In this document: in pieces, positions 23,635 to 26,572 of the stretch
Layout: every line of letters begins with the position of its first letter
Numbering within the stretch: the first letter of the stretch is position 1
Assembly (NCBI GenBank): GCA_013349405.1
Contig: DUZS01000007.1
Location: forward strand, 1-64,000
From: Desulfuromonadales bacterium
GTDB taxonomy: Bacteria > Desulfobacterota > Desulfuromonadia > Geobacterales > Pseudopelobacteraceae
Direction of reading: 5' to 3'
Length of the DNA stretch: 64,000 nucleotides
The notes under the pieces: model-generated
The model's input: only the letters and a program-made list of their open reading frames with translations
The model's database searches: none
Told to the model about the DNA's origin: nothing
Made by a program: the position numbers and the translations under genes

Positions 23635-23826
23635 ATGGACACTAGCTCAATTGCAGGTTCTTCACTTCTGTTGAAAACGGCGCAGTCGCAGCAGGCATTA
23701 TCAGCGACAATGATGAAGCAGATGGCTGATCAACAGAACAAAATGGCTGAGTTGCTTTCCCAGAACACCAGGCAGTCACCCCAGCCTGCCGCAAACAGCG
23801 GCTTCAACTTTTCAATCTTCGCCTGA
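23635..23826 (+). CDS. YjfB-like putative motility peptide
   Basis: The 63-residue protein is preceded by TGGAGGTG. Its pattern, a short N-terminal MDTSSIAGSSL, a Gln/Met-rich helix (SATMMKQMADQQNKMAELLSQ) and a Pro/Asn tail, resembles the YjfB family of small proteins often annotated as putative motility proteins. The match is weak because of low complexity. It lies 60 bp after rodA and before a terminator, so it may be the last gene of the mre unit. Confidence 0.6.
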   Translation: MDTSSIAGSSLLLKTAQSQQALSATMMKQMADQQNKMAELLSQNTRQSPQPAANSGFNFSIFA

Positions 23827-23946
23827 AGCGTTTTACACAAAAGAGAGACGGTTCGGCGTTACCAGGCGGTTTTTTTTACACCCACATGAGGCGTTCAGCG
23901 CTCGAGCGGTTTACCAGTTACGAAGACTATGGTGGCATCTTTATTA

Positions 23947-23977
23947 GACACTTTCTTCCTGAAAGCGTCTTTTTTTT
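23947..23977 (+). terminator. Intrinsic terminator upstream of the MgtE-N/CBS gene
   Basis: GACACTTTC and GAAAGCGTC form a 9-bp stem with one mismatch around TTCCT, followed by eight T residues. It ends transcription from the rodA/YjfB side. It also sits only 23 bp before the next ATG, so it could be part of a 5' attenuator; no known metal riboswitch aptamer was recognised in 23830-23946. Confidence 0.75.
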
Positions 23978-23999
23978 GTTTTTGCGAAGGGCTTGAATT

Positions 24000-25262
24000 A
24001 TGCCGATTGAAATTTCCGAAATCTATCTCAGCTCAGTCATCGGCCGCTCGGTAATCAACAGTAACGGCGACCAGATCGGTACCCTGCGTGATTTGATCAT
24101 GATCCCGGGTGAAGTGTTTCCGGTGGTTTCCCATATTGTGATCAAGACGCGCACCGGGATTAAAATCCTCCCCTGGAGTGAGGTTACGCTCTTTACTCAC
24201 GTGGTTATTTCAACCGGCAGCACCAGGCCGCTCGGCCTCACCGCATATCTCCCCGAAGAGGGATATATACTCGTCAAGCGCGACCTCCTTGACAAACAGA
24301 TTGTTGACGTGGAAGGTGCCAAAGTTGTCCGGGTTAATGACATAAAGCTCGGCAAGTTTAACCAACAGCTCTGCATATTCTCTGTAGATATCGGTTTTCG
24401 CGGGCTACTGAGGCGCCTCGGCTATGAACGCTTTGGCGAGCGTTTTGCCCGTGCTGTCAGGCGTGATATACCTCACGCCGAGATCAGCTGGTCCTATGTC
24501 CAGCCGTTGGAGGCCAACTCATCGAGACTTGCGCTTAAAATTGCCCGCGATCAGATGAATGAGATGCATCCTGCCGACCTTGCCGATATCATCGAGAATA
24601 TTCCGATCCAGAGCATCCGCACCGTACTTGATTCGATCGACACCGAAACCACCGGGGAAACTCTCTACGAACTCGAATCAGACATGCGTAATCTGGTCAT
24701 CAATCAACTGGACAATGAACAGATTACCGACATTCTTGAAGAGATGGAGCCAGACGAAGCCGCCGATGTGCTGAGTGATCTGCCGGAGCAGAAAGCACAG
24801 GAACTGCTCGACATGATGGATCAGGAGGATGCCGAAGACATCCAGGAACTGCTGGAACACGAGGAGGATTCGGCGGGTGGCCTCATGAACCCCGACTACC
24901 TGAGACTCACGTCGGATATCACCGTCGGTCGGGCCCTGGAAATTATCAGAGCGTGTGCCGATGAAGTCGAAACGATCTTCTACGGCTATGTCGTTACTGC
25001 AGAAGATTGCTTGGAAGGCGTTGTCTCCATCAAAGGTCTGATCATGAATCCACTCGAAACAATCATCTCAGATATCATGGAAGAGAACATCAAATCGGTG
25101 CGTATCGATGCGGAATTGGAGGATATGCTGGAAACATTGGCCAAGTATGACCTGATTGCCATCCCGGTACTCGATGCCGAAGACAAAATGGCCGGTATCG
25201 TCACCGTTGACGATGTGCTGGCACATTACCTGCCGCAGATCATCAAAATAAAGCGTCGTTAG
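24000..25262 (+). CDS. Soluble PRC-barrel / MgtE N-domain / CBS protein
   Basis: The 420-residue protein has no membrane helix. It starts with PRC-barrel-like segments (about 10-80 and 95-170; SVIGRSVINSNGDQIGTL). An MgtE intracellular N domain follows (about 180-300), with the repeated ...HPADLADIIENIP..., ..MEPDEAADVLSDLPEQ.. and MMDQEDAEDIQELLEHEEDSAGGLM pattern, and then a CBS-domain pair (about 300-415). In MgtE the N domain and CBS pair bind Mg2+ and gate the channel, but here the channel domain is absent. The NRAMP-type gene starts 11 bp downstream, so this is inferred to be a metal-sensing regulatory partner acting in trans. Confidence 0.85.
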   Translation: MPIEISEIYLSSVIGRSVINSNGDQIGTLRDLIMIPGEVFPVVSHIVIKTRTGIKILPWSEVTLFTHVVISTGSTRPLGLTAYLPEEGYILVKRDLLDKQIVDVEGAKVVRVNDIKLGKFNQQLCIFSVDIGFRGLLRRLGYERFGERFARAVRRDIPHAEISWSYVQPLEANSSRLALKIARDQMNEMHPADLADIIENIPIQSIRTVLDSIDTETTGETLYELESDMRNLVINQLDNEQITDILEEMEPDEAADVLSDLPEQKAQELLDMMDQEDAEDIQELLEHEEDSAGGLMNPDYLRLTSDITVGRALEIIRACADEVETIFYGYVVTAEDCLEGVVSIKGLIMNPLETIISDIMEENIKSVRIDAELEDMLETLAKYDLIAIPVLDAEDKMAGIVTVDDVLAHYLPQIIKIKRR

Positions 25263-25273
25263 AACCGGTACCC

Positions 25274-26572
25274 ATGCTTAACTACATTTCACAATTCAGA
25301 TTTTTAAAACCGCTCAAAAGCTTCAGCCCCCGGAACGTCATGATCTTTCTGGCAATCCTCGGACCGGGCATCATTACCGCCAATGTGGATAACGACGCCG
25401 GCGGTATCACCACCTATTCGCTGGCTGCGGCCAATTACGGCTACTCTATCCTCTGGATGATGATACCCACAACAATCGCACTGGTTGTCATCCAGGAGAT
25501 GTGCGCCCGCATGGGGGCGGTCACCGGCAAAGGGTTGTCAGACCTGATACGTGAATCATTCGGCGTCAAGGTCACGTTCTACGTCATGATCGCCCTGCTG
25601 TTGACCAATATGGGCAATTCCATCTCCGAGTTCGCCGGTATCGCCGCCAGTCTTGAGATATTCGGCATCAGCAAATATCTATCAGTGCCGGTTTGTGCAA
25701 TTCTGGTCTGGCTGCTGATTGTCAAAGGATCGTACAAGGTTGTCGAAAAAGTATTTCTGGTTGCGTGTCTCGTCTACATCGCGTATCCGATTGCCGCATT
25801 CATGGCTGGTCCAGACTGGAATATCGTCTTGAAGGCGAGCGTTACCCCCACATTCAAAACAGACAGCACCTACCTGATGACCCTGATAGGAATTGTCGGC
25901 ACGACCATTGCCCCCTGGATGCAGTTCTACCAGCAGGCTGCTGTCGTTGAAAAAGGGATTACTGCCGATCAGTACAATTTTTCCCGGATCGATGTAATTT
26001 TCGGCTGTATCATGGCCATCGTGGTGGCGTTCTTCATGATGGTTGCCTGCGCCTCAACGATTCATCTGCATGGATTGAAGATTGAAACTGCTGCTGATGC
26101 GGCACTGGCGTTGAAACCGCTGGTCGGTCAATACGCTTCATCGCTGTTCGCTTTCGGACTGTTCAATGCATCACTGTTTGGCGCATGTATTCTGCCGCTT
26201 TCAACGGCGTACTACATCTGTGAGGGAATGGGATGGGAATCGGGAGTAAACAAGGACTTCGAACAGGCTCCCCAGTTTTTCTGGTTGTTCACAATCATAA
26301 TCGTCATCAGTGCCGGCCTGATACTCATCCCGAATGCCCCGCTCATGACCATCATGTTCGTTTCACAGGTCGTCAACGGTGCGGTTCTCCCGTTTGTCCT
26401 GATGTTCATGATTAAGCTTATCAATGACAAAAATCTTATGGGCACCTATGTCAACGGGCCGGTATTTAACAGTATTGCCTGGTTGACAGTCGGTATAATG
26501 ATTGTTTTGACGGTAATCATGACGGTCGATACCGTATTACCCGGATTGATCAAGCGGGCGTTGTCATTTTAG
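25274..26572 (+). CDS. NRAMP-family divalent metal transporter with variant metal site
   Basis: The 432-residue protein has about eleven hydrophobic segments in the NRAMP (LeuT) fold. In helix 1 the canonical DPGN is replaced by D39-N-D-A-G-G. In helix 6 the usual methionine metal ligand of the MPH motif is replaced (GTTIAPW, Ala213). Loss of the methionine is known in NRAMP-related magnesium transporters. Together with the upstream MgtE-N/CBS protein this favours Mg2+ or Mn2+ transport over iron. That is inference. The stop lies 3 bp from the convergent HIT gene, with no terminator between them. Confidence 0.85.
   Translation: MLNYISQFRFLKPLKSFSPRNVMIFLAILGPGIITANVDNDAGGITTYSLAAANYGYSILWMMIPTTIALVVIQEMCARMGAVTGKGLSDLIRESFGVKVTFYVMIALLLTNMGNSISEFAGIAASLEIFGISKYLSVPVCAILVWLLIVKGSYKVVEKVFLVACLVYIAYPIAAFMAGPDWNIVLKASVTPTFKTDSTYLMTLIGIVGTTIAPWMQFYQQAAVVEKGITADQYNFSRIDVIFGCIMAIVVAFFMMVACASTIHLHGLKIETAADAALALKPLVGQYASSLFAFGLFNASLFGACILPLSTAYYICEGMGWESGVNKDFEQAPQFFWLFTIIIVISAGLILIPNAPLMTIMFVSQVVNGAVLPFVLMFMIKLINDKNLMGTYVNGPVFNSIAWLTVGIMIVLTVIMTVDTVLPGLIKRALSF

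Follow-up and report, generated by a model that had tools for sequence, protein, structure and literature searches.

A gene pair for a probable NRAMP-family magnesium importer and a soluble protein similar to the magnesium-sensing gate of MgtE

The closest described relatives of the gene pair considered here were reported by Shin et al. in 2014 (PMC4072509), and, in the part of that paper drawn on here, most members of the NrmT group are said to adjoin a gene resembling the cytoplasmic domain of MgtE, a neighbor for which a role in cytoplasmic feedback or as a chaperone was speculated. The same part of the paper tells us that two carriers of C. acetobutylicum gave Mg2+ rescue in B. subtilis without the partner, that co-expressing the partner of Acidobacterium capsulatum did not improve Mg2+ rescue, and that the A. 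capsulatum carrier rescued a manganese (Mn2+-uptake) mutant. A second relative, EleNRMT, moves Mn2+ too in vitro, according to the portion of PMC8806188 at hand, which also defines the NRMT signature as DxxG in helix 1 together with TxxA/T in helix 6. What the MgtE-like gene does beside NRMTs was left open in 2014 (PMC4072509), and a search of the literature (open-licence coverage, with few subscription journals) found no later test of partner function.

In other words, the layout has been known since Shin et al., and the feedback idea was proposed there as well; an earlier, sequence-only reading of our DNA, which did not know the layout to be characterized, was overtaken by the part of the 2014 paper cited above (PMC4072509). 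What is new here are the co-occurrence counts, the near exclusion of the MgtE channel, the association with a riboswitch, and the retained Mg2+-site residues.

The window (the whole stretch of DNA that was analyzed, 64,000 nucleotides from genome G000, a Desulfuromonadales bacterium) holds two open reading frames, of 420 and 432 aa and separated by 11 bp. The first encodes a soluble protein resembling the Mg2+-sensing gate of MgtE, which we call the partner, and the second a probable Mg2+ importer that belongs to the NRAMP family (Table 1).

Table 1. Features of the gene pair and its leader, in window coordinates
Feature	Position	Strand	Basis or remark
Leader with no recognizable M-box	23827..23999	+	alignable to the M-box leaders seen in relatives, for the most part over the terminator
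Hairpin with T run, like an intrinsic terminator, immediately ahead of the partner start codon	23946..23977	+	by eye and alignments
Partner protein, PRC1 - PRC2 - hinge - MgtE_N - CBS pair, lacking the MgtE channel domain	24000..25262	+	
PRC-barrel 1, residues 1-90	24000..24269	+	Pfam PRC, 1.8e-6 at residues 7-35; AF2 strands
Second PRC-like barrel (PRC2), residues 91-171	24270..24512	+	AF2 model; Pfam PRC in relatives
Probable flexible hinge, residues 172-181	24513..24542	+	pLDDT under 50
MgtE_N domain	24564..24869	+	residues equivalent to Mg7 E59, Mg4 D91 and Mg6 D95 of Thermus MgtE
CBS pair	24873..25226	+	residues equivalent to Mg4 D247 and Mg5 D226
NRMT-type NRAMP transporter, 432 aa	25274..26572	+	
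Helix-1 metal-site motif DNDAGG (D41xxG44)	25388..25405	+	replaces DPGN
Helix-6 metal-site motif TTIAPW (T210xxA213)	25901..25918	+	GTTIAPW, Ala at the Met position

The sequence-only reading had described the second gene as an NRAMP protein lacking the DPGN and methionine motifs, and so it is: Pfam assigns it to Nramp (6e-101), helix 1 and helix 6 carry the DxxG-TxxA signature of NRMTs, and the classic NRAMP/MntH motifs (DPGN in helix 1, Met in helix 6) are absent. The same reading spoke of an NRAMP "pore," where the family name holds and the word pore is loose, NRMTs being described as carriers, not channels. As judged by E-values of matches in the PDB, the carrier lies closer to NRMT than to classic NRAMP, with EleNRMT (7qia) first at 2e-123 and the best classic NRAMP next at 9e-31. 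Across 114 high-scoring NRMT rows (108 distinct sequences), helix 1 reads DNDAGG in 105, a one-residue variant that keeps DxxG in 8, and is cut there in 1, and helix 6 reads GTTIAPW in 105, GTTITPW in 8, and GTSITPW in 1; the named loci among these rows had been fetched with patterns made from these motifs, which biases that part of the count. The substrate of the window carrier would be Mg2+, and its genome encodes a separate MntH-like protein (L003) with the classic DPGN and Met.

Two other carriers deserve a word. A further NRAMP paralogue of the window genome (L002, G000:C4, a 578-aa open reading frame) has the motifs GNDASA and GATISPY and a 177-aa N-terminal extension that has no Pfam match and, among 58 genomes searched, is present in 4, one of which is G000; from its look we had suspected a PRC domain fused to this protein, and Pfam gave no support. 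An NRMT 61% identical to the window's (L096, CALQBJ020000045.1) comes from a record whose title names a Bifidobacterium breve MAG; the bin may be contaminated or wrongly labelled.

The first gene was read from sequence as combining PRC-barrel, MgtE N and CBS domains with no channel, and Pfam agrees: PRC at residues 7-35, MgtE_N at 189-290, CBS in two stretches (the best at 356-409), and no match in the partner to the MgtE channel domain (PF01769). Unmentioned in that reading was a second PRC-like barrel, at about residues 91-171. It appears in an AF2 model of the partner built from 48 sequences (the window's and those of 47 named loci; mean pLDDT 88.8, pTM 0.58), in which the strands of barrel 1 and the second PRC-like barrel are followed, after a hinge of low confidence, by MgtE_N as a helical domain and by the CBS pair with a terminal helix, the modest pTM meaning that the relative placement of these domains is not fixed. 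The window's own PRC2 segment, searched alone, has no Pfam match; among relatives, Pfam does report PRC twice in L074 and in L089, and once at the PRC2 position in L020. Foldseek places the model closest to 2yvy (E 2.5e-21, TM by target 0.82), the structure of the T. thermophilus MgtE cytosolic domain with Mg2+ bound.

Mean conservation among partners falls from MgtE_N (0.61) through PRC2 (0.55) and CBS (0.50-0.53) to PRC1 (0.39), and about half of the columns kept in at least 95% of partners lie in PRC2, where D98, Q100, D103, R111, V112, N113, D114, D130, R138, R139, and W164 are invariant or nearly so. Because so many of the best-kept columns gather there, we propose that PRC2 may be the surface by which the partner docks on the carrier. 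Several partners end in a short basic C-terminal tail.

How much of the MgtE sensor has been retained? We aligned 93 distinct partners with T. thermophilus MgtE, whose Mg2+-site assignments are those given in the consulted part of PMC5882242, keeping 6 partners of a divergent class apart and using 26 MgtE proteins as controls. The Asp of Mg6 is present in 93 of 93 partners, and E or D occupies the Mg7 position in 83. At Mg4, 72 partners have the pair D/D and 16 have S/N, the Mg4 residues being replaced in about a fifth of partners. Mg5 (D226) is D in 16 and N in 40, a position that varies in the MgtE controls too (D 10, N 16), where the Mg4 and Mg6 Asp residues are found in 24 to 26 and E or D at Mg7 in 21. 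In the divergent class, Mg6 and D247 are kept in all six and D91 in none. The two Mg4-site residues change together in the partners.

The sites of the MgtE plug helix are another matter, being missing in the partners because the C-terminus comes 6-28 residues after the L249 position, the end of the CBS pair. The window partner stops 11 residues past its CBS pair, without plug helix or channel, and by a hand count past the end of the alignment its positions matching D250, E258, and D259 are A, K, and I. The partner may bind Mg2+ through the sites that remain, and here some caution is in order, since the conservation of the Mg4 positions is equalled or exceeded by 56 of 230 columns, 3 of which are gap columns; the Mg residues sit in a generally conserved module, so their conservation may be partly structural and is not in itself proof of Mg2+ binding. 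A claim for an ATP site was dropped, the MgtE residues being mixed: among the 93 partners, 72 have Tyr170 and 81 have R or K at Arg187, the corresponding counts for the 26 MgtE controls are 21 and 23, and the other four vary in both groups.

Loss of the neighborhood among relatives had been named beforehand as one of the findings that would sink the sequence-only reading, and the reading survives. In a phylum sample of 395 genomes, with NRMT counted at 50% identity at least and fragments included, NRMT occurs in 83 genomes and the partner in all 83 of these (7 as a partial match). The main search gave the partner in 82 of the 83 (6 of the 82 as partial matches), and the remaining genome (G344) holds the last 98 residues of a partner at a contig edge. 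The partner lies upstream on the same strand in 57 genomes, convergent in 13, and on another contig in 13, part of which may be assembly breaks. One such genome (G306) has partner and NRMT well inside contigs of 108 and 124 kb, with no second carrier in the 7.3 kb around the partner (L045). Seen from the partner's side, the listed partner matches extend into the PRC region in 89 genomes, of which 82 have an NRMT of at least 50% identity, 6 have a carrier of 34-37% identity, and 1 (G042, 67% complete) is an orphan. The six are a divergent class with the same signature, whose partner adjoins on the downstream side. (Loci L034-L039 and L201 belong to this class, whose identity within the phylum sample is about 34-37%.) The other 11 low-identity carriers listed have no adjacent partner, and the 8 of them that were read (all except G330:C116, G170, and G119:C23) have other motifs at one or both sites.

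A wider set of named genomes, the best 80 of 578 confirmed loci, with titles that include Geobacteraceae, Nitrospirae, Omnitrophota, Acidobacteria, Firmicutes, and others, has the partner adjacent at 65 of those 80 loci (61 upstream, 3 convergent, 1 downstream). The remaining 15 of these best 80 comprise 6 cut at a contig edge, 7 with the partner elsewhere, and 2 others (L124 and L128) with no partner within the 0.7 and 0.95 kb of upstream sequence examined. All 7 genomes that were followed up have a near-full partner elsewhere in the genome, at E 1.4e-109 or better. In one of them (G400, with the L086 carrier) the partner adjoins a second, divergent carrier, to which it may belong instead of to the L086 carrier, and in the other 6 there is no carrier within 1.5 kb beside the partner. 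The pairing is far beyond chance. No open reading frame was matched by both the partner and carrier models (135 and 131 matched frames), and long open frames, among them those of L013, L012, and L027, had the look of open extensions or of other frames and not of fusions. Five genomes of the genus (G414:C119, G432:C350, G405:C81, G433:C17, and G421:C725) have a second partner copy of about 70% identity, and at L202 and L204 the second partner copy adjoins an NRMT.

The MgtE channel domain (PF01769) is present in 229 of the 395 genomes and occurs together with NRMT in 11, compared with 48 expected (Fisher 4e-21, a P value that overstates independence, the genomes being related). Ten families contain both states, with 37 genomes NRMT-only, 45 MgtE-only, and 1 with both, which suggests that NRMT and MgtE have been exchanged repeatedly. 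CorA, taken as a control, is not excluded, being found in 66 of 83 NRMT genomes and 166 of 312 others. The window genome itself has no MgtE channel (PF01769) and two CorA matches. The partner and NRMT together would thus do the work of MgtE, and this replacement argues for Mg2+ as the substrate.

A riboswitch points in the same direction for part of the family. Scanned with Rfam at gathering scores, 22 of 56 chosen loci have an M-box (8 of 18, 11 of 20, and 3 of 18) and 34 have none. Within the genus, a partner orthologue of at least 75% identity is found in 26 of 39 genomes, 25 of them assessable (G432 is cut), and an M-box lies just upstream of the partner in 22 of the 25 (with a contig end cutting into two of these). 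NRMT and partner are unlinked in two Firmicutes genomes (L097/L163 and L102/L164), and there an M-box stands before each gene. At L126 (848-4721) an M-box heads a row of CorA, partner, and NRMT and so does not directly precede the partner; this is a case of two kinds of Mg2+ importer and a sensor behind a single riboswitch. G416 and G426 each have a 32% partner with an M-box about 1.8 kb ahead of it, a gap that in G426 is filled by a carrier with DNDAGG.

The window is one of the exceptions, no M-box having been found in its leader or elsewhere in the G000 sequence. The M-box is also absent in G430 (L177) and G405 (L189), and all three keep the terminator-like hairpin before the start codon, which in relatives is the conserved closing element of the M-box leader. 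The likeness of the window and G430 leaders makes an assembly error unlikely. Compared with leaders L054, L056, L092, L057, and L059, the window leader with its terminator beats dinucleotide shuffles (0, 0, 0, 0, and 1 of 300 reach its score). The idea of a degraded M-box aptamer was given up, the part before the terminator not rising above shuffles (72, 20, 17, 137, and 118 of 300), and we therefore claim homology for the terminator part only. In its folding the leader does not stand out (z -1.5). Between a rodA-like gene (named by eye) and the leader is a 63-aa open reading frame (23635-23823, + strand) with a weak resemblance to YjfB_motility (PF14070, E 0.028, below the cut-off).

We favor, as the rather likely reading, a two-protein substitute for the MgtE channel, in which one protein imports Mg2+ and the other gives Mg2+ feedback in trans. 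NRMT would carry Mg2+ into the cell, the ion being thought to travel partly hydrated (according to the portion of PMC8806188 at hand), and the partner would be a soluble Mg2+ sensor composed of two PRC barrels and an MgtE gating module that lacks plug helix and channel. At high cellular Mg2+, the ion would bridge the N domain and the CBS pair, the module would compact, and the PRC part (we favor the second barrel) would dock on the cytoplasmic face of the carrier and slow uptake, as the MgtE module does in cis; the M-box, in that part of the family that has it, would be a second, transcriptional brake. Direct regulation of the carrier by the partner is what we infer, and the physical contact and the sign of regulation are presumed with it. 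On a broader proposition we are evenly divided: that evolution, through PRC barrels, transferred a channel's Mg2+ gate to a carrier of the unrelated LeuT fold, where it serves in trans as an obligate subunit, and that the resulting two-protein machine has been exchanged repeatedly with the MgtE channel across bacteria.

PRC barrels are known assembly domains, and constant co-occurrence fits a required subunit as well as it fits a brake, so that the partner might activate, assemble, or stabilize the carrier, or hand Mg2+ on to it as a chaperone, rather than close it by feedback. The chaperone role was the alternative that Shin et al. themselves named (in the part of PMC4072509 drawn on). We think this whole reading unlikely, since the retained MgtE Mg2+-site residues point to sensing and the carriers that worked without a partner in B. 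subtilis (same part of PMC4072509) indicate that it is not strictly required. Distinctly less probable is a pair devoted to Mn2+ (or to several divalent ions), whose partner would sense the ion in question; the rescue of the Mn2+-uptake mutant by the A. capsulatum carrier and the Mn2+ moved by EleNRMT (PMC4072509 and PMC8806188, in the portions cited above) would fit, but an M-box precedes the same operon in close relatives, the MgtE channel is nearly excluded, and G000 owns its separate, classic MntH-like protein. As for a free Mg2+ sensor with other targets, merely co-regulated with NRMT, unlinked genes in several genomes and the M-box on both in two could be explained by co-regulation alone, but a partner that is almost never seen without an NRMT-signature carrier (one orphan in 89 genomes) makes this very improbable indeed.

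The in-trans feedback reading is strengthened by constant co-occurrence, MgtE exchange, and matched riboswitches, and the Mg2+-type NRAMP with a separate Mg2+-sensing subunit that was first read from the letters of the window draws its support from the closest relatives, the DxxG-TxxA site, the M-boxes of relatives, the near exclusion of MgtE, and the Mg2+-site residues. In the genomes sampled, the partner is no optional neighbor, for it accompanies the carrier even when unlinked and shares its riboswitch class in two such genomes. Should direct control prove true, transporters of two unrelated folds would be gated by the same kind of Mg2+ sensor, and work on NRMTs in isolation would have left out their regulator. 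The feedback hypothesis of 2014 is now directly testable.

Among known systems, the NrmT pairs of C. acetobutylicum (Ca_c0685) and A. capsulatum (Acp2976-2977) offer the same kind of carrier beside an MgtE-cytoplasmic-domain-like gene (in the part of PMC4072509 drawn on). There, an M-box is upstream of some operons and is not defining, and the window operon lacks one; the C. acetobutylicum partner is split in two genes, whereas the window partner is one gene, and the main text of the paper has no mention of the PRC barrels that the window partner has ("prc" occurs 0 times). With classic NRAMP and MntH, the window carrier shares a superfamily (Pfam Nramp) and not the DPGN and helix-6 Met. EleNRMT of Eggerthella lenta (PDB 7qia; PMC8806188) belongs to the same clade and has the same DxxG-TxxA metal site, but was studied alone, as far as the portion of that paper at hand goes, whereas the window carrier is paired with a partner gene. 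The partner, for its part, shares with T. thermophilus MgtE (PDB 2yvx, 2zy9, and 2yvy) the MgtE_N and CBS module and the Mg4, Mg6, and Mg7 residues; unlike MgtE, it lacks the plug-helix sites and the channel domain, has two added PRC barrels, and has as its neighbor a transporter of unrelated fold, encoded by another gene.
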